In this document: in pieces, positions 51,315-62,448 of the stretch
Layout of the letters: every line of letters starts with the position of its first letter
How positions within the stretch are numbered: position 1 is the first letter of the stretch
Assembly: GCF_035961655.1 (NCBI RefSeq)
Contig: NZ_CP108393.1
Span: 620,001 to 684,000 of the forward strand
From: Streptomyces sp. NBC_01317
GTDB lineage: Bacteria > Actinomycetota > Actinomycetes > Streptomycetales > Streptomycetaceae
Reading direction: 5' to 3'
DNA length: 64,000 bases
Program-made: the position numbers and the translations under genes
Notes under the pieces: model-generated
Told to the model about the DNA's origin: nothing
The model's input: the letters and a program-made list of their open reading frames with translations, nothing else
Databases searched by the model: none

Positions 51315-52346
51315 TCAGCCGCCGGACGGGCCCTTCCCACGCCCGCCCGGCAGGGGCGGCGCGTCGGAGGCGGTGGCCCTGCGGAGGCGTACGGTCAGCA
51401 ACGCGCCCTGGCGGCGCAGCCGTTGCAGGGGGGTGGGCGGCAACTCGCGGGCCGCGCCGCGCGCGTAGTACCGCTCGACGTAGAACTGACCCGCCGACAG
51501 CACACTGGTGACGGCGATGTACCAGATGGTCGCCACCATCAGCAGCGGGATGACCTGGTAGGTGCGGTTGTAGATCAACTGCACGGAGAACAGCAGGTCC
51601 TGCACCGCGAGGACGCTGACGATGCTGGTGCCCTTGAGGGTGCCGATGAGCATGTTGCCCGCGGTGGGCACGATCGAGCGCATCGCCTGCGGTACGACGA
51701 TCCGGCGCAGTACCCGCCACCGGCTGAGGCCCAGCGCGGCGGCGGCCTCGGTCTGGCCCGAGTCGACGGACAGGATGCCGCCGCGCACCACTTCGGCGGC
51801 GTACGCGGCCTCGTGCAGGGTGAGTCCGATCAGCGCGGTGAGACTGGCGCCGAAGAGGTTCACGGTCTTGACGGTGAGGAACTCGGGGCCGAACGGGATG
51901 CCGAGGCCGAGGGTCGGGTAGAGCGCGCCGATGTTGAACCAGAACAGCAGCTGCACCAGGAGCGGGGTGGACCGGAAGATCCACACGTACCCCCAACTGA
52001 TCGTGCGCAGAACGGGGTTGGCGGAGAGCCGCAGCACGGCGAACACCGTGCCGATGAGGAATCCGAGGACCATCACGGCGGCGGTCAGCCAGAGGGTGAG
52101 GACCAGTCCGTCCAGGACGGCCGGGGTGGTGAAGTACTCGCCCACCACGGACCACTGGAACCGCTGGTTGCGGACGACCGAGTTGACGACCATGGCGAGG
52201 GCCAGCAGGGCGACGACGGCGGAGAGCCACCGGCCGACGTGGCGGCGGGGCACGATGCGGGTGAGGTCGTCGGCGGACGGGGGTGCGTCCGCGCGGCGCG
52301 GCGAGGAGGCGCCGGCCGCGGGCAGGACGTCGGGGGAGACGGACAT
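51315..52346 (-). CDS. amino acid (cystine-type) ABC transporter permease
   Basis: The protein has 343 residues from ATG 52346; an in-frame start at 52454 would add 36 residues. It is a HisM/TcyM-like permease: SVVGEYFTTPAVLDGLVLTLWLTA, the [14 protein letters not shown] segment, EAAYAAEVVRGGILSVDSGQTEAAAALGLS (EAA loop) and RIVVPQAMRSIVPTAGNM. It is divergent from the operon at 52566-58415 and closely related to that operon's permease (55538). The single ATPase in that operon probably serves both. Confidence 0.9.
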   Translation of the reverse strand: MSVSPDVLPAAGASSPRRADAPPSADDLTRIVPRRHVGRWLSAVVALLALAMVVNSVVRNQRFQWSVVGEYFTTPAVLDGLVLTLWLTAAVMVLGFLIGTVFAVLRLSANPVLRTISWGYVWIFRSTPLLVQLLFWFNIGALYPTLGLGIPFGPEFLTVKTVNLFGASLTALIGLTLHEAAYAAEVVRGGILSVDSGQTEAAAALGLSRWRVLRRIVVPQAMRSIVPTAGNMLIGTLKGTSIVSVLAVQDLLFSVQLIYNRTYQVIPLLMVATIWYIAVTSVLSAGQFYVERYYARGAARELPPTPLQRLRRQGALLTVRLRRATASDAPPLPGGRGKGPSGG

Positions 52347-52461
52347 GGAGGGGCTCCACGGGAGAGGTGGTCGGCGGTGGCCAGCGGGTGTCATCACGCG
52401 CACCGCGTCCCTCAACACGGCCGTCACGCCCCGGTGTTCCCACCGGACCGTCATCCCTTCG

Positions 52462-52492
52462 ATCGTACGTGCGGAAACGGGAGGTCTGTCAA
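52462..52492 (-). promoter_or_regulatory. minus-strand promoter of the divergent permease
   Basis: On the minus strand TTGACA (52492-52487) and TACGAT (52467-52462) are separated by 19 bases. The permease start is about 110 bases downstream. The -35 box is a perfect consensus. Confidence 0.5.
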
Positions 52493-52529
52493 GAAGTCCT
52501 TTTCCGCCCGACCACAGTACGAACGCCGG

Positions 52530-52559
52530 TTGACTTCCCCGTACCCACCGTGCTCAATT
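52530..52559 (+). promoter_or_regulatory. promoter of the sulfur operon
   Basis: TTGACT (52530-52535) and TCAATT (52554-52559) are 18 bases apart, only about seven bases before the leader peptide start, so the leader transcript would be nearly leaderless. Confidence 0.5.
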
Positions 52560-52565
52560 GGCTCC

Positions 52566-52643
52566 ATGCAGAAGCAGCTGCCGTTGGTCACCCGCGGACA
52601 CATCGACTTCGGTCGAGTGTGGTCCGCCTCTTGTTGCGCCTGA
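52566..52643 (+). CDS. cysteine-type leader peptide (attenuator uORF)
   Basis: The 25-residue peptide MQKQLPLVTRGHIDF + GRVWSASCCA fits the actinobacterial 'putative leader peptide' family with its R-x-HID-x-x-RV core and terminal Cys-Cys. The two cysteine codons (tgt tgc) lie just before the stop. Such peptides precede sulfur-assimilation genes, and ribosome stalling at cysteine codons is thought to control transcription through RNA folding. A GC-rich, repeat-containing 278-bp leader follows it, with a tandem acgcctcgtc pair at 52754-52773 that could form alternative structures, then the monooxygenase gene. Confidence 0.8.
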   Translation: MQKQLPLVTRGHIDFGRVWSASCCA

Positions 52644-52921
52644 CCCGGCAGCGGGCCGCCTGACCGGCCCCTCCCTCCCTCGGTGACCCCCTCGCGGGCC
52701 GAGACTCCTCTCCTCACCGGGCGCGCGCTGCCGTCGACCCCGTCGTTCCCCTGACGCCTCGTCACGCCTCGTCACGTCATCACGTCGTCGTGCCTGTCCG
52801 GTTCTCACCCTGCTCGGTGCCACCCTGTCGGGTCTCTCCCCGCTCGGGTTCCGCTCCCGCGGCCCTGAGGCATGACCACGACCGGTCTCTCCCAGCTTCT
52901 CTCCTGTACGAAAGGTCCGCC

Positions 52922-54079
52922 ATGCCTGTGGAGTTCCTCGGGATAGCCGCCACCCACGACGGTTCGGAGACACATCCCCGCTCCGGTGCCTCGTTCGACA
53001 AGGACTACACACTCAAGCTCGCACGGGCCCACGAGGACCACGGCTGGGACCGGGTGCTGTTCGCGTACGGGTCGGGCTCACCCGACCCCGCCCCGGCCGC
53101 CGCGTACATCGCCGCGCACCTGGACAAGCTCCAACTCCTGCTGGCGCACCGGCCGAACGTGTCGTACCCGACCTTCGCCGCGAAGACGTTCGCCACTCTC
53201 GACCGGATCAGTGACGGCCGTCTGACGGTCCACTTCATCACCGGGGGCAGCGACCAGGAGCAGGGACGCGAGGGGGACACCCTCACCAAGGACCAGCGGT
53301 ACTCCCGCACCCGCGAGTACATCGAGATCGTCAAGCGGATCTGGACCTCGCACGAGCCCTTCGACCACGAGGGCGAGCACTACCGGTTCCACGACTTCGT
53401 CAGCGACGTCTTCCCGGTCCAACAGCCCCGGCCCAACGTCTCGTTCGGCGGATCCTCCGACGCGGCCCACGCCGCCGGCGGCGCCGAGGCGGACATCTAC
53501 TGCCTGTGGGGCGAGCCACTGGCGAAGACCGCCGAGCAGATCGAGACGGTGAAGGCCGCGGCGCGCGCCGCCGGCCGTACGACCCCGCCCCGGATCCAGG
53601 TCGCGTTCCGGCCGATCATCGCTCCCACGGAGGAGCTGGCCTGGGAGAAGGCGCACCGCACGGTGGCCGCCATCAACGCCCGCAAGGAGCGGGGGGACGC
53701 GCTGGTCAGGCGGGGCCGGGGGGCGCCGGAGAACACCGGCTCGCAGCGGCTGATCGCGATCGCGGAGGCGGGTGAGCGGTACGACCGCGCGCTGTGGACG
53801 CCGACCGCCGCCGCCACGGGCGGCGCGGGCAACTCCAACGCGCTGGTGGGCACACCGGAGACGGTCGCCCAGGCGCTGCTCGACTACTACGACCTGGGCG
53901 TGGACATCCTCTCGGCCCGTGGTTACGACCTGCTGGGCGACGCCATCGACTTCGGCCGCCATGTGATCCCGCTGGTCCGCGAAGAGGTCGCGAAGCGAGA
54001 CACCGAGCGCACCGCGCGGGCCGCGCGCACCGAGAACGCCGGGACCGGCCCGCTGAGACTGGCGGAGGCCGGGAGATGA
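52922..54079 (+). CDS. LLM-class flavin-dependent monooxygenase
   Basis: The protein has 385 residues from ATG 52922. It belongs to the SsuD/CmoJ-like luciferase family: FLGIAATHDGSETHPRSG, HEDHGWDRVLFAYGSGSPDP, AAYIAAHLDKLQLLLAHRPN, TGGSDQEQGREGD, YSRTREYIEIVKRIWTSHEPFDHEGEHYRF and VSFGGSSDAAHAAGGAEADIY. With reduced FMN and O2 it would cleave C-S bonds of sulfonates or S-substituted cysteines. Its ATGA overlap with the GNAT gene at 54076 and the cysteine leader upstream point to sulfur salvage. Confidence 0.9.
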   Translation: MPVEFLGIAATHDGSETHPRSGASFDKDYTLKLARAHEDHGWDRVLFAYGSGSPDPAPAAAYIAAHLDKLQLLLAHRPNVSYPTFAAKTFATLDRISDGRLTVHFITGGSDQEQGREGDTLTKDQRYSRTREYIEIVKRIWTSHEPFDHEGEHYRFHDFVSDVFPVQQPRPNVSFGGSSDAAHAAGGAEADIYCLWGEPLAKTAEQIETVKAAARAAGRTTPPRIQVAFRPIIAPTEELAWEKAHRTVAAINARKERGDALVRRGRGAPENTGSQRLIAIAEAGERYDRALWTPTAAATGGAGNSNALVGTPETVAQALLDYYDLGVDILSARGYDLLGDAIDFGRHVIPLVREEVAKRDTERTARAARTENAGTGPLRLAEAGR

Positions 54080-54582
54080 CCTCCGTCGCCGAACCGGGCG
54101 GGCTGACCTGGGCCACGGCCGCCGTCACGGACCCGCTCGCCCGGCCGATGCTGCGGGAGCTGGGGGACGAGTACTCCGCGCGGTACGGCAAGGACGCGCA
54201 CGCCGAGATGGCCCGCTACCCGGCGGCGGAGTTCGAACCGCCGCACGGCGTGCTGCTGCTGTTGCTGGAGCGGGGTGAGGCGGTCGCCGGAGGCGCGTTC
54301 CGCCGCTACGACCCCGCCACGGCGGAGCTGAAGCGCATCTGGACCCACTCCGCCCACCGGCGGCGCGGGCTCGCCCGCCGGGTCGTCGCCGAGCTGGAAC
54401 GTCTCGCCGCCGCGCGTGGCTACCGGCGGGTCTGTCTCACCACCGGGCCGCGCCAGCCCGAGGCCAAGGGCCTCTATCTGCGGACCGGTTACACACCGCT
54501 GTTCGACACGGCGGCCGACCCCGAGACCATCGGGCCGCTCCCGTTCGAGAAACACCTCGCTCCGTCGAGGGGAAAGAGATGA
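54076..54582 (+). CDS. GNAT family N-acetyltransferase
   Basis: The protein has 168 residues from ATG 54076, overlapping both neighbours by ATGA. The GNAT core is seen in VLLLLLERGEAVAGGAFRRYD, ELKRIWTHSAHRRRGLARRVVAELE (acetyl-CoA loop RRRGLA) and CLTTGPRQPEAKGLYLRTGYTPL. In the Bacillus ytm system the corresponding enzyme (SnaA) N-acetylates S-alkylcysteines before the monooxygenase acts. That role is inferred here from the neighbours. Confidence 0.88.
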   Translation: MTSVAEPGGLTWATAAVTDPLARPMLRELGDEYSARYGKDAHAEMARYPAAEFEPPHGVLLLLLERGEAVAGGAFRRYDPATAELKRIWTHSAHRRRGLARRVVAELERLAAARGYRRVCLTTGPRQPEAKGLYLRTGYTPLFDTAADPETIGPLPFEKHLAPSRGKR

Positions 54583-55520
54583 AAACCGTGCGCGCTCAGG
54601 TATCCGCCGTCCTCGCGGCCGTTCTGCTGCTGCCCGCCCTGGCCGCCTGTGGTGCGGACGACACGTCCGGCAAGGAGACGGCGGGCGCCGCGTCCCCCGC
54701 GCCCTCGGGCGACGTGGTCGCCGCGCTCAAGAAGGACGACGCGCTGGCGAAGCTGCTGCCCGCGGACGTCCGCGAGCGGGGCACGATCAAGATCGCCTCG
54801 TCGGTGGGAGCCGCGCCCAGCGCCTACTTCCCCGACGCGACGGGGAAGAAGCCGGTCGGCCTGGACATCGACATCGCCGACGGGGTCGCCAAGATCCTGG
54901 GGCTGAGGCTGGAGCGCGAGGAGGCCAGCTTCGAGGCGATCCTGCCCGCGCTCGGCAGTGGCAAGTACGACGTGGGGACCGGCAACTTCGGTGTCACCGA
55001 CGAGCGTCGCAAGACGATCGACTTCGTCACGTACATCAACGACGGCCAGGGCTTCGCGGTCAGCAAGAACGACACGACCACCCAGAAGGTCACGAAGCTC
55101 GACGAACTCTGCGGCAAGACCGTCGGGGTCGGGGCGGGCACCACCTTCGAGGCGACCCTCAACGCGAACAAGTCGGTGTGCGCGGAAGCGGGCAAGAAGC
55201 CGTACACGGTCAAGGTCTACTCGGACACCGGCGCCGGCCTCACCAGCCTCCAGCAGGGCCGGATCGACATCGAGATGTCGACCATCAACGGACTGCGCTA
55301 CCAGGCGGCCCAGCCGGCGGCCGGCATCAAGTTCCTCGGTGAGTTCCACCGGCTCGACGTGGGATTCGCCTTCAAGAAGGGCTCTCCGCTGCTCCCGGCG
55401 TTCGAGGGCGCGGTCAACGAACTGATCGCCGACGGCACGTACAAGAAGATCCTCGCGCGGTGGGGCACCCAGGACTCCGCCATCGAGAAGTCCGAGATCA
55501 GTCCCCCCGAGAAGAAGTAG
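54579..55520 (+). CDS. amino acid ABC transporter substrate-binding lipoprotein
   Basis: The protein has 313 residues. The lipoprotein signal is LLPALAAC with acylated Cys after residue 21. The family-3 binding fold shows [66 protein letters not shown] and [16 protein letters not shown]. It captures an amino acid-like ligand outside the membrane. It is coupled to the GNAT gene and precedes a permease and an ATPase. A second binding protein ends the operon. Confidence 0.92.
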
Positions 55521-55537
55521 CGGCAGGAGCGCCCACC

Positions 55538-56533
55538 ATGGAAACCGCAACCGGCACCGCGCAGGCCGCGCCGCCGCCAGGATCTCTCGTACCACCCGGA
55601 ACCGCCCAGGACGGCGAGCAGCTCGCCACCCTGAAAGTGGTGCCCGCCCGCCACTACTGGCGATGGGCCGCGGGGGTCGCCGCCCTCGTCGTCGTCGCGC
55701 AGTTCATCCACGGCCTGGCCACCAACCCGGGCTGGGACTGGCACACGTTCTCGCTCTACCTGACGGCCGACAGTGTCCTCAAGGCCGTCTGGGTGACCCT
55801 CCAACTCACCGCGTACGGCACGGTGCTGGGCTTCGCGCTCGGGATCGTCCTGGCCTTCATGAGGCTGTCGCGCAGTGCGATCCTCCAGACGGTCGCCTGG
55901 ACGTACATCTGGGCCTTCCGGTCCATCCCGCTCATCGTGCAGCTGCTGTTCTGGTTCAACCTGGCCTATCTGTACAAGGAGCTGGGCGTCGGGATCCCCT
56001 TCGGTCCCGTGCTGTGGAGCTTCGACACACTGAACCTGGTCGGCGCCCTGTCGGCCGCCGTCATCGGTCTGGCACTCCACCAGGCCGCGTACGCCGCCGA
56101 GATCGTCCGCGGCGGAATCATCTCCGTGGACGGCGGGCAGTTGGAGGCCGCCGCGGCACTGGGCATCCCCCGGCTGCGGCAGCTGCGCAGGATCCTGCTC
56201 CCGCAGGCGATGCGCGGCATCCTGCCCAACGCCGCCAACGAGGTCATCTCCCTGTTCAAGGGCACGTCGATCGTGTCCGTGATGGCCATCGGCGAGCTGT
56301 TCTACCAGGTGCAGGTGATCTACGGCCGCAACGGGCGTGTGGTGCCCCTGCTGATGGTCGCCACCGCCTGGTACATCCTGCTGACCACCCTGCTGTCCGT
56401 CGTCCAGTACTACGTGGAGCGGCACTTCGCGCGGGGCCACGAGCGCACTCCCCCGCCCACCCCGTTCCAGCGTGCCCGCACGTTCGTCCTCAAGCTGCGG
56501 GCCACCGCCGCCACCGGAGGTTTCCCGCGATGA
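55538..56533 (+). CDS. amino acid ABC transporter permease
   Basis: The protein has 331 residues from ATG 55538 (GGCAGGAG upstream). HisM-like features match the divergent permease at 51315: [20 protein letters not shown], the [14 protein letters not shown] segment, [31 protein letters not shown] and [18 protein letters not shown]. Its stop overlaps the ATPase start. It forms the membrane channel of the importer, possibly in a heteromer with the divergent permease. Confidence 0.92.
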
Positions 56534-57360
56534 GCAACACCGACAGCACAAGTGCGGGCACGAGCGTCGGAAAGGGCCCGGGCGACGGGACGTCCGACGG
56601 CGGTCTGATGGTCGACGTGCGCGGGGTCCACAAGAACTTCGGCACCCTCGAAGTACTGCGCGGCGTCGACCTCCAGGTCCGTACCGGCGAGGTGACCGTG
56701 GTGCTCGGCCCGTCCGGCTCGGGGAAGTCGACGCTGCTGCGCAGCATCAACCACCTGGAGAAGCTCAACAAGGGCTACATCAGCATCGACGGCGAGCTGA
56801 TCGGCTACCGCAGGGCCGGCCACAAGCTGCACGAGCTCAAGGAGCGCGAGGTGCTCAAGCAGCGCCTCCACATCGGGTTCGTCTTCCAGAACTTCAACCT
56901 CTTCCCCCACCTGACCGTGGTGGAGAACATCATCGAGGCGCCCGTCTCGGCGCTGCGCGTCCCGCGCAAGCAGGCACTCGAACAGGCACGGGTGCTGCTG
57001 GAGCGGGTCGGGCTCGCCGACAAGACCGGCGTGTACCCGCGCCAGCTGTCCGGCGGCCAGCAGCAGCGGGTGGCCATCGCCCGCGCCCTGGCGCTGGAGC
57101 CGAAGGTGCTGCTCTTCGACGAGCCCACCTCGGCGCTCGACCCCGAACTGGTGGGCGAGGTCCTCGATGTCATCAAGGACCTGGCCCGGTCGGGCACCAC
57201 CATGATCGTCGTCACTCATGAGATCGGCTTCGCCCGTGAGGTCGCGGACACCGTCGTCTTCATGGACGGCGGAGTGATCGTCGAACAGGGCACGCCGGCG
57301 GAGGTGCTCGACCGGCCCCGGCACGAGCGCACCAAGGCGTTCCTGTCGAAGGTCCTCTGA
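56530..57360 (+). CDS. amino acid ABC transporter ATP-binding protein
   Basis: The protein has 276 residues from ATG 56530. Walker A is GPSGSGKST, the signature is [15 protein letters not shown], Walker B is [12 protein letters not shown] and the H-loop is [14 protein letters not shown], as in GlnQ/TcyN-type ATPases. It has a short low-complexity N terminus (about 20 residues). It drives import of an amino acid-like sulfur compound with the two permeases. It is the only ATPase of the cluster. Confidence 0.94.
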
Positions 57361-57425
57361 CCCTCCCGTACGTGCCACCCCTCCGTCCTCCCCTCCCCCT
57401 CACTGTCCCCGTCAAGGAGCCCACC

Positions 57426-58415
57426 GTGTCGCCCCGTCGCGCCTTCCGTCCCGCCGCCGCCCTGCTCGGCCTCGTCACCGCCCTCACCCTCACCGCCTGC
57501 GGCGACCCCGCCGACGACACCGTGAGCAACGCCGCGCCCGCCGCGAAGGGCGCCAAGAAGGCCGAGTTCGACCTGAGTCCGAACCAGAAGCGCATCACGA
57601 CGCCCAAGGTCGACGCCGTCGCCGCTCTCCTGCCCGCGGCCATCCGCGAGCGCGGCACGCTGGAGGTCGTCAACTCGGCGGGCTCGGCGCCGCCACTCGA
57701 CTTCTACGCCACCGACGACAAGACCGTGATCGGCGTGGAGACCGACATCTCCGCGCTGATAGCCAACGTGCTGGGGCTCAAGCTGGAGTCCAACACCGTC
57801 GACTGGGCGAACATCTTCGTCGGGCTCGACAGCGGTAAGTACGACCTCGGCATCAGCAACATCACCGTCACCGAGGAGCGCAAGGAGAAGTACGACTTCG
57901 CCACCTACCGGCTCGACAACCTCGCGTTCGAGGCCAAGAAGGGCTCGGGCTGGAAGGTCGACGGCCCCGAGGACGTGGCGGGGAAGACGATCGGGGTCAG
58001 CTCCGGCACCAACCAGGAGAAGCTGCTGGTCACCTGGAGCGAGGAGAACGTGAAGAAGGGCCTCAAGGCCACCGACATCAAGTACTACCAGAACTCCACC
58101 GACTACTACCTGGCGCTGGGTTCGGGCCGCCTGGACGCCTACCTGGGCCCGAACCCGGTCGCCGCGTACCACTCCGCCTCCACCGGCCAGACGGAGGTCA
58201 TCGGCACCTATTCCGGCGGCGGGGCCGACGTCCAGGGCAAGATCGCGGCCACCACCAAGAAGGACAACGGTCTGATCAAGGCGGTGCATGAAGCCCTCAA
58301 CACCGTCATCGAGAACGGCAGTTACGGAAAGGTCCTCAAGCGCTGGGGCCTGTCCAACGAGGCCGTGACGTCCTCGGAGCTCAACCCGCCCGGGCTGCCG
58401 AAGACCAACCAGTGA
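57426..58415 (+). CDS. second amino acid ABC substrate-binding lipoprotein
   Basis: The protein has 329 residues from GTG 57426 with AAGGAG upstream. Lipobox LTLTAC; then RGTLEVVNSAGSAPPLDFY, VIGVETDISALIANVLGL, GLDSGKYDLGISNITVTEERKEKYDFATY, KTIGVSSGTNQEKLLV and LGSGRLDAYLGPNPVAAYHS. It resembles the first binding protein but differs in detail, so the importer may take two related substrates, as TcyJ and TcyK do. A 14-bp duplication (58403-58430) spans its stop codon. Confidence 0.92.
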   Translation: MSPRRAFRPAAALLGLVTALTLTACGDPADDTVSNAAPAAKGAKKAEFDLSPNQKRITTPKVDAVAALLPAAIRERGTLEVVNSAGSAPPLDFYATDDKTVIGVETDISALIANVLGLKLESNTVDWANIFVGLDSGKYDLGISNITVTEERKEKYDFATYRLDNLAFEAKKGSGWKVDGPEDVAGKTIGVSSGTNQEKLLVTWSEENVKKGLKATDIKYYQNSTDYYLALGSGRLDAYLGPNPVAAYHSASTGQTEVIGTYSGGGADVQGKIAATTKKDNGLIKAVHEALNTVIENGSYGKVLKRWGLSNEAVTSSELNPPGLPKTNQ

Positions 58416-58489: not shown

Positions 58490-59320
58490 TCAGCCCAGCT
58501 GCCCCGTGCCCGTGCCCGGCGAACCCGCCGGACACGGGCACTGCGCGTGGTACTTGAGGGCGATGGCCGCCAGGTCCAGATGCGCGCCGAAGGCGGGCCG
58601 CGCCGCCAGCCGGCGCGTGTAGTCCCACAGGCGCGGGTAGTGCGCGACACACCGCGCCGCCACGGTGTCCAGATGCGGCCGGTGCACGGTGTCCAGATAC
58701 ACCAGCGCCACCCACAGCTGCACGTCGGCAGCGGTCGGCGTGTCACCGCCCAGTACGAACTCCCGCGCCTCCATGCGCTGTTCGAGCGTGTCCAGCGCGG
58801 CGAAGAGCGTGTGCAGGGCGCGGTCCCTGTCCTCTGGACCCGTGGCGGGCCGGCCCGCGATCCCCGCGTTGACACCGATGTCCCGCTCGCACAGCAGGGC
58901 GACGGCCTCGATCTCCTCCTCCGTACCGCGCGGGCGCAGTTCGGGACCCGAGCCGCCGAACCGCACCGACAGGTCACGCAGAATGTCCGGGACGTACGTA
59001 CTGACGATCCGCCCCGTCCAGCCGTCGCTGAGCACGGGTGCGGCGGCGGGCCCCGGGTGGTGGTGCGAGGTGGCCTCGTACAGCGGGAGCAGTGCCTCGT
59101 ACCCGCCGCCGGGGCCGTCGGGCACGGCGGGGAGCAGGGCCACGGGGAGGGTGTCGCCGAGGTCGAGCAGGCTGTGGGTGACGGCGATCTCCAGACAGGT
59201 GGGACAGGCCGGGGACAGGTGGAGGCGGTAGCGGCGCGGGACGGCGTAGTGGCCGCTGCGCGCGTCGCACCCGATCCTGCCGCGGATGGAGGGTGCGATC
59301 GCCGGTGTGATGAGGGACAT
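58490..59320 (-). CDS. glutathionyl-hydroquinone-reductase-like (Xi-class GST) protein
   Basis: The protein has 276 residues from ATG 59320. The thioredoxin-fold active site reads SPACPTCLEIAV (CPTC in place of the usual CPWA), and the C-terminal GST domain has DIGVNAGIAGRPA, HTLFAALDTLEQRMEAREFVLGGDTPTAADVQLWVALVYLD and YPRLWDYTRRLAARPAFG. Xi-class enzymes reduce glutathionyl- or mycothiol-conjugated hydroquinones. Actinomycetes make mycothiol, so a mycothiol conjugate is likely. A cysteine leader peptide 157 bp upstream ties it to sulfur status. Confidence 0.85.
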   Translation of the reverse strand: MSLITPAIAPSIRGRIGCDARSGHYAVPRRYRLHLSPACPTCLEIAVTHSLLDLGDTLPVALLPAVPDGPGGGYEALLPLYEATSHHHPGPAAAPVLSDGWTGRIVSTYVPDILRDLSVRFGGSGPELRPRGTEEEIEAVALLCERDIGVNAGIAGRPATGPEDRDRALHTLFAALDTLEQRMEAREFVLGGDTPTAADVQLWVALVYLDTVHRPHLDTVAARCVAHYPRLWDYTRRLAARPAFGAHLDLAAIALKYHAQCPCPAGSPGTGTGQLG

Positions 59321-59476: not shown

Positions 59477-59587
59477 TTACGCGGCGCTGCAGACACGGAG
59501 CAGGTCGATGTGGCGACGGGAGGTCAGCAGGGGCAGCGATCGGGCCGTACCGGCCCCGCGATCGATGTCCAGCCCCGAACGACCCAT
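59477..59587 (-). CDS. cysteine-type leader peptide of the GST-like gene
   Basis: This is a 36-residue minus-strand reading frame from ATG 59587 to TAA at 59477-59479. It ends LLTSRRHIDLLRVCSAA, the R-R-HID-L-x-RV-C core of the actinobacterial putative leader peptide family, with the Cys codon (tgc) four codons before the stop. It lies 157 bp upstream of the GST-like start on the same strand. No ribosome site is obvious, so a shorter start within the frame is possible. Confidence 0.75.
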   Translation of the reverse strand: MGRSGLDIDRGAGTARSLPLLTSRRHIDLLRVCSAA

Positions 59588-59926: not shown

Positions 59927-61288
59927 ATGAGTCAGCCCGTCGACTCCGTCACCGCGGGGCACACCCCCGAGGACATCTCCGGCCAGGAGCCCGCCGCGGC
60001 CTGGTCGTTCGAGACCAAGCAGATCCACTCGGGCGCCGCACCCGATCCGACGACCGGCGCCCGCGCGACGCCGATCTACCAGACGACGTCGTTCGTCTTC
60101 AAGAACACCCAGCACGCCGCGGACCTGTTCTCCCTCGCCGAGCCGGGCAACATCTACACCCGGATCCACAACCCGACCCAGGACGTCCTGGAGCAGCGGA
60201 TCGCCGCGCTGGAGGGCGGGGTGGCGGCCGTCGCCCTCGCCTCGGGGCAGGCCGCGGAGACCCTCGCGATCCTCACCCTGGCGAGCGCCGGGGACCACAT
60301 CGTCTCCAGCACGTCGCTGTACGGCGGTACGTACAACCTGCTGCGCCACACGCTCCCCCGGTTCGGTATCGAGGTGTCCTTCGTCGACGACCCGGACGAC
60401 CTCGACGCCTGGCGCGCGGCCGTACGCCCGAACACCAAGGCCCTGTTCGCCGAGACGCTGGGCAACCCGCGCGGCAACGTGCTCGACATCCGGGGGGTGG
60501 CCGACGCGGCGCACGACGCCGGGGTGCCGCTGATCGTGGACAACACCGTGCCGACGCCCTACCTGCTGCGTCCGCTGGAGCACGGAGCGGACATCGTGGT
60601 CCACTCGGCGACGAAGTTCCTCGGCGGGCACGGCACCACCATCGGCGGTGTGGTGGTCGACGGCGGTACGTTCGACTTCGGCGCGCACGCCGAGCGGTTC
60701 GCGGACTTCCACGAGCCCGACCCCAGCTACCACGGCCTCCAGTACTGGCCGGCCCTCGGCCCAGGCGCCTTCGCGATCAAGCTCCGGGTCCAGCTGCTGC
60801 GCGACCTCGGTCCGGCGCTCGCCCCGCACTCCGCGTTCCTGCTGCTCCAGGGCGTCGAGACGCTCAGCCTGCGCGTCGAGCGCCACACGTCCAACGCGCT
60901 GGCGCTGGCCCAGTGGCTGGAGCAGCGCGACGAGGTGTCGGCCGTCCACTACGCGGGACTGGAGTCCAGCCGGTGGTACGAGGCCGGGCAGCGGTACCTG
61001 CCGCGGGGCGCGGGCGCGGTCCTGGCCTTCGAGCTGCGGGACGGCGTGGAAGCGGGCAAGCGGTTCGTGGACGGCGTCGAGCTGTTCAGCCACCTCGCCA
61101 ACATCGGTGACGTACGCAGTCTGATCATCCACCCGGCGTCGACCACCCACAGCCAGCTGGACGAGGAGCAGTTGGTGGCCACCGGCACCGCGCCCGGTCT
61201 GGTGCGGCTCTCCGTGGGCCTGGAGAACGTCGACGACCTCAAGGCCGATCTGGAGGCCGGGTTCCGCGCCGCCAAGGCGGCGTCCTGA
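59927..61288 (+). CDS. metY: O-acetylhomoserine aminocarboxypropyltransferase / sulfhydrylase
   Basis: The protein has 453 residues from ATG 59927. It is a PLP enzyme of the Cys/Met metabolism family: WSFETKQIHSGAAPDPTTGAR, PIYQTTSFVFKNTQHAADLF, NIYTRIHNPTQDVLEQRIAALE, PLIVDNTVPTPYL and the lysine in VVHSATKFLGGHG. It makes homocysteine from O-acetylhomoserine and sulfide. It is followed after two bases by metX, so the substrate is made in the same operon. Confidence 0.94.
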   Translation: MSQPVDSVTAGHTPEDISGQEPAAAWSFETKQIHSGAAPDPTTGARATPIYQTTSFVFKNTQHAADLFSLAEPGNIYTRIHNPTQDVLEQRIAALEGGVAAVALASGQAAETLAILTLASAGDHIVSSTSLYGGTYNLLRHTLPRFGIEVSFVDDPDDLDAWRAAVRPNTKALFAETLGNPRGNVLDIRGVADAAHDAGVPLIVDNTVPTPYLLRPLEHGADIVVHSATKFLGGHGTTIGGVVVDGGTFDFGAHAERFADFHEPDPSYHGLQYWPALGPGAFAIKLRVQLLRDLGPALAPHSAFLLLQGVETLSLRVERHTSNALALAQWLEQRDEVSAVHYAGLESSRWYEAGQRYLPRGAGAVLAFELRDGVEAGKRFVDGVELFSHLANIGDVRSLIIHPASTTHSQLDEEQLVATGTAPGLVRLSVGLENVDDLKADLEAGFRAAKAAS

Positions 61289-61290
61289 CG

Positions 61291-62448
61291 ATGTCGGTCG
61301 AACCGGCCACACGTCCCCTCCCGCCGGCCGCCGCCGGCTGGCAGGAGGGGGACCCGCCGGGCCGCCGCTCCTGGGTGGCGCTGGAGCGCCCCCTCCCCCT
61401 GGAGGCGGGCGGTTCGCTGCCCGCCGTACGACTCGCGTACGAGACGTGGGGGCGCCTCGCCCCCGACGCCTCGAACGCGGTGCTGGTCCTGCACGCGCTG
61501 ACGGGAGACAGCCATGTCGCGGGACCGGCAGGACCGGGGCATCCCACCGGCGGCTGGTGGGATGCCCTGGTCGGACCGGGGCTGCCGTTCGACACGGAGC
61601 GGTGGTTCGTGGTCGCGCCGAACGTGCTGGGCGGCTGCCAGGGTAGTACGGGTCCCTCGTCGGTCCGTCCCGGGGCGGCCCGTCCCGGTGAGCGCTGGGG
61701 GCCCGGCTTCCCGTACCTGACCCAGCGCGACCAGGTGGCCGCCGAGGCGGCCCTCGCGGACGCCCTGGGCATCGACCGCTGGGCCGTGGTCGTCGGCGGT
61801 TCCATGGGCGGGATGCGCGCGCTCGAATGGGCCGTCGGCCACCCGGAGCGCACGGGCTCCCTCCTGGTCCTCGCCTGTCCCGCCGCGGCCTCCGCCGAAC
61901 AGATCGCGTGGGGCGCCGTCCAGATCGAGGCCATCAGGGCCGATCCGGGCTGGCGCGGGGGCCGCTACCACGACGCCCCGGCCGGCGCCGGGCCGTACCG
62001 CGGGCTCGGGGTGGCCCGGCGGATCGCCCATGTGACGTACCGCAGCGAGCCCGAACTGGCCGCCCGGTTCGGCGGCGCCCCGCAGCCGGGCGAACACCCC
62101 TGGCGGGGCGGGCGCTACCAGGTCGAGTCGTACCTGGACCACCACGCGGCCAAGCTGGCGCACCGGTTCGACGCGGGCAGCTACGTGACGCTGACCGAGG
62201 CGATGAACGGCCACGACGTGGGCCGGGACCGGGGCGGCGCAACCGCCGCGCTGCGCCGGGCCACCATGCCCGCGCTGATCGCCGGCGTCGACTCCGACCG
62301 GCTGTACCCCCCGTCCCAGCAGGCGGAGCTGGCCGCCGCGCTGCCGGGCGCGGACCGGCCGAGGGTCATCGAGTCGCCGTACGGACACGACGGCTTCCTC
62401 ATCGAGGCGGAACAGGTGGGCGCGCTGGTGCGGGAGTTGCTGGCGTGA
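61291..62448 (+). CDS. metX: homoserine O-acetyltransferase
   Basis: The protein has 385 residues. It is an alpha/beta-hydrolase-fold acyltransferase: VLVLHALTGDSHVAGPA, WWDALVGPGLPFDTERWFVVAPNVLGGCQGSTGP, nucleophile VVVGGSMGGMRALEW, Asp in AGVDSDRLYPPSQQ and His in YGHDGFLIEAE. It acetylates homoserine with acetyl-CoA, feeding MetY. The start is two bases after the metY stop. Confidence 0.94.
   Translation: MSVEPATRPLPPAAAGWQEGDPPGRRSWVALERPLPLEAGGSLPAVRLAYETWGRLAPDASNAVLVLHALTGDSHVAGPAGPGHPTGGWWDALVGPGLPFDTERWFVVAPNVLGGCQGSTGPSSVRPGAARPGERWGPGFPYLTQRDQVAAEAALADALGIDRWAVVVGGSMGGMRALEWAVGHPERTGSLLVLACPAAASAEQIAWGAVQIEAIRADPGWRGGRYHDAPAGAGPYRGLGVARRIAHVTYRSEPELAARFGGAPQPGEHPWRGGRYQVESYLDHHAAKLAHRFDAGSYVTLTEAMNGHDVGRDRGGATAALRRATMPALIAGVDSDRLYPPSQQAELAAALPGADRPRVIESPYGHDGFLIEAEQVGALVRELLA

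Follow-up and report, generated by a model that had tools for sequence, protein, structure and literature searches.

The gene cluster described here lies in a stretch of 64,000 nucleotides from Streptomyces sp. NBC_01317 (NZ_CP108393.1, positions 620,001-684,000, forward strand), referred to below as the window; in its source genome of 8.07 Mb, G000, it corresponds to G000:C1:620001-684000. The cluster combines a luciferase-like (LLM) flavin monooxygenase, a GNAT N-acetyltransferase and an amino-acid ABC importer made of two solute-binding proteins (SBPs), two permeases and one ATPase, and it is preceded by a short open reading frame (ORF) for a cysteine leader peptide. We propose, with a probability of about 0.55, that this locus serves sulfur scavenging from S-substituted cysteines, is induced by cysteine starvation and carries an exchangeable module that would cleave the carbon–sulfur (C-S) bond.

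Gene calls and profile searches place all components of the system in the window, as an earlier sequence-only reading of this DNA had described them: an operon with an LLM, a GNAT, two family-3 SBPs, a permease and an ATPase, with a second permease divergent from it. Family scores here and below come from NCBIfam and Pfam models and are given as bits against the model cut-off.

51315-52346, minus strand: permease A, amino-acid ABC type, divergent (PF00528, 78 bits; best NCBIfam model a cystine ABC permease, 134.6 of 300 bits)
52922-54079, plus strand: LLM flavin monooxygenase, of a sister clade of SsuD without the sulfonate arginines (profiles, alignment, tree)
54076-54582, plus strand: GNAT N-acetyltransferase, similar to those of Cmo-type clusters (PF00583, 56 bits)
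54579-55520, plus strand: SBP1, family-3 solute-binding protein (PF00497, 93 bits)
55538-56533, plus strand: permease B (PF00528, 81 bits)
56530-57360, plus strand: ABC ATPase (best NCBIfam model TcyN, 318.7 of 406 bits)
57426-58415, plus strand: SBP2, family-3 solute-binding protein (PF00497, 89 bits)

The stop/start overlaps noticed in the sequence-only reading are present as 4-nt ATGA overlaps at the LLM/GNAT, GNAT/SBP1 and permease B/ATPase junctions, while gaps of 17 nt and 65 nt separate SBP1 from permease B and the ATPase from SBP2. The layout recurs in other Streptomyces. In a conservation search of 150 genomes, LLM orthologs (at least 68% identity; a fragment in G083 excluded) were found in 25, the window included. 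Among the other 24 loci, the GNAT is adjacent in 12, permease A is divergent in 13 and all seven genes occur in 6; four orthologous LLM loci have a smaller set, without permease B and SBP2.

The acetyltransferase links the operon to a known type of sulfur gene cluster. It is 48-61% identical to the GNATs of six proteobacterial clusters, and its relatives occur in plasmid-borne clusters of Rhizobium, Neorhizobium, Phyllobacterium, Comamonas, Haematobacter and Pantoea. LLMs and genes of an amino-acid ABC importer are present in every plasmid cluster examined; in the records, whose gene tables have gaps, an M20 or amidohydrolase gene is listed for all except Neorhizobium. A genome scan with a GNAT alignment, led by a Rhizobium sequence and biased toward Proteobacteria, returned 589 loci, and in the best 80 of these, all but two labelled Proteobacteria, both a CmoO-like and a CmoJ-like LLM were present in 79, an M20 amidohydrolase in 74, the ATPase in 79, and permease B-like and SBP2-like genes in 78 each. 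A match to the window LLM (28-36%) lay nearby in 10. The only one of the 80 without LLMs, L179, is cut by a contig end. The enzymes of the Rhizobium NXC14 cluster score 336 bits on TIGR03558, 491 on TIGR03860 and 357 on TIGR01891. In four proteobacterial genomes the best match of the window GNAT is the cluster gene, and this match is unambiguous, because it reaches 148-172 bits and the next best at most 54. Sequence comparison thus identifies the window GNAT as orthologous to the GNATs of CmoO/CmoJ/M20 clusters. As a separate observation, a contig labelled Mycobacterium sp. KBS0706 (L210) carries CmoO-, CmoJ- and M20-like genes 61-76% identical to those of Rhizobium; the label may be wrong.

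The importer shows a similar affinity. Cystine transporter models give the top scores, each under cut-off, for the two permeases, the ATPase and SBP2, but not for SBP1. Identity to the six Cmo-type clusters is 63-69% for the ATPase, 47-54% for the permeases (50-54% for permease B), 42-48% for SBP2 and 31-37% for SBP1, and the best match of the ATPase is the Cmo-cluster ATPase in all four proteobacterial genomes (66-70%). At the position of the GlnH-type ligand-site aspartate, which presumably binds the amino group of the ligand, SBP1 has T and SBP2 has P; in other SBPs of these clusters the residue is P, T, V or A. Compared with the proteobacterial clusters (e.g., Rhizobium NXC14, L129), the window therefore shares the GNAT and the amino-acid ABC importer; unlike them, it pairs these with one SsuD-type LLM, whereas the enzyme module there consists of CmoO-like, CmoJ-like and M20 proteins. 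No deacetylase was found in the window operon when M20 members were searched. Elsewhere, G000 encodes two M20 amidohydrolases over cut-off (at 3.21 and 1.03 Mb), seven TIGR03860 members over cut-off, and CmoO-type members (TIGR03558), one of them in a leader-preceded cluster at 446.3-447.4 kb.

The monooxygenase itself is not of the Cmo type assumed in the sequence-only reading. Its NCBIfam scores are highest on alkanesulfonate monooxygenase models (208 of 510 and 204.7 of 518.2 bits), compared with 82.7 of 279.7 bits on the NtaA/DmoA model (TIGR03860, to which CmoJ and YxeK belong); the CmoO-like group, TIGR03558, is absent from its NCBIfam matches. An F420-dependent enzyme, a grouping that the sequence-only reading had named as refuting its proposal, was ruled out, as no F420 model gives more than 82.4 of 166.9 bits, compared with the 208 on the alkanesulfonate model. 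Two SsuD-type proteins of G000 reach 460-474 bits (474 and 472 on the first alkanesulfonate model), also under the cut-offs. In a comparison with PDB sequences, the LLM gave 166 bits with 7jv3, which we take to be MsuD, 152 with 1nqk, presumably SsuD, 98 with the dimethylsulfone monooxygenase 8t0u and 31 with YtnJ, which we equate with CmoJ. Among the best 120 of 3,992 LLM matches, the nearest named relatives are Streptomyces proteins. An SfnG identity was rejected at 148 of 383 bits; the one SfnG compared (L227) also differs at both arginine sites discussed below.

The sulfonate site of MsuD consists of W195, R225 and R296 (with S299), and the R225A, R296A and W195A variants released no measurable sulfite (PMC8234197). 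Aligned to MsuD, the window LLM, like the SsuD/MsuD enzymes that form its nearest family, keeps the tryptophan (W196); unlike them, it has both sulfonate-binding arginines replaced (R225 by A228, R296 by T299). The second site is T in 24/24 other orthologs and the first is A in 23 and S in 1, whereas 10/10 SsuD-type proteins in the same alignment, two scored with NCBIfam and the rest assigned by tree grouping, retain both arginines. In a FastTree phylogeny of 64 sequences, the 25 orthologs form one clade (support 0.873), and together with 23 more distant relatives, which are no clade on their own, they form a clade with support 0.965; the ten SsuD-type proteins form another (0.993). The LLM is therefore placed by its sequence in a separate clade of the SsuD group, sister to SsuD. 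Since both sulfonate-binding arginines are replaced, the enzyme is probably no sulfonatase, and a plain SsuD function was judged unlikely. A sulfone may be compatible with the replacement.

A further feature of the locus is the leader peptide, which the sequence-only reading had also pointed out. The region upstream of the LLM contains the following elements.

52530-52565, plus strand: putative promoter, TTGACT-18 nt-TCAATT-6 nt-ATG; the transcript of the leader ORF would then be leaderless (from sequence)
52566-52643, plus strand: cysteine leader peptide ORF MQKQLPLVTRGHIDFGRVWSASCCA (NF042936 match; leader kept upstream of the LLM in relatives)
52653-52701, plus strand: conserved untranslated block with arms GGGCCG (52653-52658), CGGCCC (52665-52670) and GGGCCG (52696-52701) (alignment A2, 11 loci)

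The single NCBIfam match of the leader is NF042936 (Ms4527A Cys-rich leader), with 26.8 bits, under the cut-off of 45, over 18/21 model positions. A cysteine leader stands upstream of the LLM in 18/24 other orthologous loci. Most of these leaders lie directly behind a TTGAC...AAT-type promoter, fitting a predicted leaderless transcript; in most aligned loci TTGAC and the spacing are preserved, the -10 part less well. That the leader start codon is the transcript start is predicted from promoter-like sequence only. Poly-cysteine leaders are reported to attenuate mycobacterial operons (Canestrari 2020, as cited in PMC9094748 and PMC13236596), an effect described as translation attenuation in PMC13236596. 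The window leader resembles these mycobacterial leaderless attenuator ORFs in being a short ORF with terminal cysteine codons upstream of sulfur genes, with its start codon where the transcript is predicted to begin; unlike them, it scores below the cut-off of the hidden Markov model, and its regulatory role is suggested by sequence. In the window, the gap between leader and LLM is 46% C and 26% G, and the fold of 52566-52712 has a z-score of -1.97. The conserved block hardly varies across the 11 loci chosen for alignment A2 (which left out L039, L042, L046 and L047-L051): exact copies of arms 1, 2 and 3 are present in 8, 11 and 10 loci, respectively. Outside the alignment, L039 and L042 lack the exact set of arms. 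The arms could form two mutually exclusive hairpins, which is offered as a suggestion only; no known RNA family was found in the window at gathering thresholds.

The cysteine leader is more than a chance pattern, because a strict leader motif occurs at 5 sites in G000 and at 0 in a reversed control. Two sites are in the window, upstream of the operon and of a GST gene. The others are upstream of a cluster with NtaA-type, CmoO-type and other LLMs (446-451 kb), upstream of an ssu-type operon with an SsuD-type protein (472 bits), and at 6521.7 kb beside two NtaA-type LLM genes described below, directed away from them. Some sites of a looser pattern look like leaders; one of them, in L123, precedes what on inspection by eye resembles a MoaD-like gene and a cysteine synthase. 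A tryptophan-bearing leader subtype, the one found at the loci of interest here, occurs 76 times in 63/150 genomes and 0 times in the reversed control. It proved wrong as a marker of only the LLM and GNAT, as many of the 76 sites have neither; among 30 fetched loci of this subtype, 22 have a sulfur gene or chassis gene at most 1.5 kb away, counting both strands (20/20 within the genus and 2/10 outside it). Annotators already know this leader class, since a Streptomyces clavuligerus plasmid record carries a 'putative leader peptide'. A Streptomyces lividans reannotation lists eight leader peptides, none named after cysteine (PMC8079986), and none of the open-access literature matches listed deals, in its title or opening abstract lines, with this locus or with a cysteine leader in Streptomyces.

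Different enzymes are found with the same leader and importer. At an identity threshold of 65%, the GNAT is matched in 21/150 genomes, in 13 of them beside the LLM. In five Streptomyces loci (L236-L240) the GNAT belongs to a second architecture, in which two NtaA-type LLMs replace the SsuD-type LLM and the leader, GNAT, SBP1, both permeases, ATPase and SBP2 are kept. Here the leader is followed by the GNAT and SBP1, and the divergent unit reads permease A, c7, permease B, ATPase, SBP2 and the two NtaA-type LLMs. The split of the permeases across a divergent promoter, which the sequence-only reading had presented as a departure from Bacillus, thus recurs both in relatives of the window locus and in loci with the other enzyme module. 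The c7 protein, of about 650 aa, matches PF13454 (FAD-NAD(P)-binding; two members scored) and gave no NCBIfam match at 1e-20 (one member scored); it recurs beside permease A or the NtaA pair in L032, L041, L115, L236-L240, L280-L286, L289 and L291-L294. G000 has its own c7-NtaA-NtaA set at 6522.0-6526.4 kb, unlinked to the window operon and with no importer there; of this NtaA/CmoJ-type pair, one member exceeds the TIGR03860 cut-off of 279.7 with 398 bits and the other falls short of it with 209. In L242, from another family, the GNAT is found with permease B, ATPase, SBP2, c7 and NtaA-type LLMs; it is otherwise placed in G069, which has the leader and GNAT only, and in G055, where it is apart from its LLM.

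Fifteen further loci with the same leader subtype were picked from genomes without an LLM ortholog or GNAT match (E <= 1e-20). Eleven have SBP1, permease A and c7, three have NtaA-type LLMs without SBP1 or permease A, and one has an ssuE/dszC/ssuA-like set. As the genomes were chosen for lacking the GNAT, the 11 loci show only that the chassis can do without it. Together with the second architecture, they lead to the view that one chassis and one leader subtype join either an SsuD-like LLM or an NtaA/CmoJ-type pair, with the GNAT optional; the gene arrangements thus show an exchange of the enzyme module on a common importer chassis. Apart from this, a stretch on the S. clavuligerus plasmid (L127:8663-8863), just upstream of the GNAT, is 78% identical to LLM residues 304-370 and looks like a remnant.

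The parallel with Bacillus drawn in the sequence-only reading, which saw the locus as a counterpart of the ytm operon, stands in outline for the importer and the GNAT and fails for the enzymes. For this comparison, the gene list of ytm and the gene order of ytm and yxeKLMNOPQ (scm) are taken as general background. In component types, the window matches the B. subtilis ytm/ytn system (tcyJKLMN-cmo, S-alkylcysteines) in having two SBPs, two permeases, one ATPase, a GNAT and a flavin monooxygenase; unlike that system, its operon has no CmoO, CmoJ or deacetylase, and it has a divergent permease and a leader peptide. The S-alkylcysteine pathway of B. subtilis is described in PMC10863075 and PMC12757645. 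The scm operon, for S-(2-succino)cysteine, likewise brings together a monooxygenase, a GNAT, an SBP, a permease and an ATPase, with three importer components (PMC9706529), and its monooxygenase YxeK is, like DszA, a homolog of CmoJ (PMC10863075). In contrast, the window has an SsuD-like LLM, two permeases, two SBPs and a cysteine leader, and its operon has no YxeP deacetylase. As a set, LLM, GNAT, SBP, permease and ATPase resemble yxeKLMNO no less than they do ytm. The pathway class is likely right, but the operon is no ortholog of ytm or yxe, because Cmo/YxeK-type enzymes and a deacetylase are absent and the monooxygenase belongs to another clade. Judged by analogy, it most likely works like these systems, and the leader, the importer and the GNAT, with its relatives adjoining CmoO/CmoJ-like LLMs and M20 genes, agree with the joint sulfur role proposed earlier.

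In B. subtilis, the logic of acetylation, cleavage and deacetylation is established (PMC9706529, PMC12757645, PMC10863075). For the window operon, the sequences show the gene content and its conservation, the exchange of the enzyme module, the replaced sulfonate arginines and the cysteine-leader ORFs; substrate, reactions and regulation are predicted as follows. A leaderless transcript would open with the leader ORF, and when Cys-tRNA is low, ribosomes slowed at its cysteine codons would allow the operon to be expressed, in line with the mycobacterial precedent. SBP1, SBP2, permeases A and B and the ATPase would then import a cysteine-derived sulfur compound, as their families suggest. By orthology, the GNAT would acetylate its amino group to yield an N-acetyl-S-substituted cysteine. 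The LLM would depend on FMNH2 from a flavin reductase whose gene lies elsewhere; it would oxygenate the carbon next to sulfur and break the C-S bond without a sulfonate-binding site. Other substrates may be the task of the NtaA/CmoJ-type pair at 6.524-6.526 Mb. Finally, one of the two M20 amidohydrolases encoded elsewhere in the genome would remove the acetyl group.

Several observations weigh against this scheme. No deacetylase is linked to the operon, and the ATPase has a 64% paralog in G000. The leader is present with no GNAT beside the LLM in 7/24 other loci (L040, L046-L051); conversely, the GNAT occurs without the SsuD-type LLM (L236-L240, L242, G069) or apart from it (G055), and the chassis occurs without any GNAT in the 11 selected loci. 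The leader at 6521.7 kb has no evident downstream sulfur gene, and the looser leader pattern is noisy in G000, with 39 sites against 16 in the control. An alternative that we regard as unlikely, while giving it more weight than the others, is that the SsuD/SfnG-like LLM acts on imported amino-sulfonates (cysteate, homocysteate) or on sulfones, with the GNAT merely protecting the amino group. The nearest curated models, for alkanesulfonate monooxygenase and then SfnG, and the nearest PDB sequences, alkanesulfonate monooxygenases, point in this direction, as do genes near the other 24 LLM loci: SsuA-like in 8, SsuE-like in 6 and DszC/SfnB-like in 6 (one member of each scored, with 200 bits on the SsuA family at a cut-off of 163.5, 218 on SsuE at 164, 199 of 850 on DszC and 155 of 431 on SfnB). 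For sulfonates, this is opposed by A228 and T299, conserved in the place of two arginines that the SsuD-type proteins keep.

The favored route through S-substituted cysteines must also be set against the import and desulfurization of mercapturates. Mycothiol carries an N-acetylated cysteine and the amidase Mca frees N-acetylcysteine (AcCys) S-conjugates into the medium (PMC4267739), so the natural substrate would arrive already acetylated and the GNAT would be an accessory for non-acetylated substrates. The GNAT-free chassis loci, from genomes selected for that absence, fit this idea, and so does the loss of the GlnH-type aspartate from both SBPs; the same residue is, however, replaced in proteobacterial clusters that do have the GNAT, so the replacement alone is no sign of an N-acetylated ligand. 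We consider this explanation rather improbable, and grade just as low its wider form, in which actinomycetes re-import mercapturates by this importer family and free the sulfur with either the SsuD-like clade or the NtaA/CmoJ-type pair, both governed by one conserved cysteine leader. If it were true, the mycothiol detoxification loop would be closed, the released mycothiol conjugates would be given a fate, and the Streptomyces chassis loci without an acetyltransferase would be explained. Least probable in our judgment is detoxification or general cystine/amino-acid uptake, with the GNAT inactivating a toxic amino-acid analog and the LLM as a bystander. Some GNATs acetylate toxic amino acids, and the under-cut-off affinity of all importer parts but SBP1 for cystine transporter models would suit such a role; the cysteine leader before the LLM, the overlapping genes and the co-occurrence of the GNAT and importer with C-S-cleaving LLM types in two phyla argue against it.

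Beyond the operon, the strict motif added a second leader-like ORF that the sequence-only reading had not included, located before a GST-like gene.

58490-59320, minus strand: GST C-terminal-domain protein, possibly under its own cysteine leader (PF13410, 45 bits)
59477-59587, minus strand: second cysteine-leader-like ORF (...LLTSRRHIDLLRVCSAA; start codon uncertain), upstream of the GST-like gene (strict motif at 59493-59512)

GST-like genes are also found near the LLM in L037, L039, L042 and L048, and in L127, the cluster on the S. clavuligerus plasmid. The genes metY (O-acetylhomoserine sulfhydrylase) and metX adjoin the locus (59927-62448, plus strand); an ARAGORN call of tRNA-Gln at 61364-61458 (plus strand), inside metX, is probably a false positive. 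Elsewhere in G000, L060 (G000:C1:288000-307500) is perhaps another organosulfur locus: two more distant relatives of the LLM (57% and 45%) are found there together with ABC ATPases, a gene of the acyl-CoA-dehydrogenase type (SfnB is its best NCBIfam model, at 105 of 431 bits) and a protein that clusters with a BisC-family molybdoenzyme of L062.

If the reading of the window operon as a route for S-substituted cysteines is true, N-acetylation-based cysteine salvage would extend to Streptomyces with a different C-S-cleaving enzyme, and the SsuD-like LLM clade would gain a testable function. Several organosulfur loci of one genome would then be linked through their cysteine leaders.

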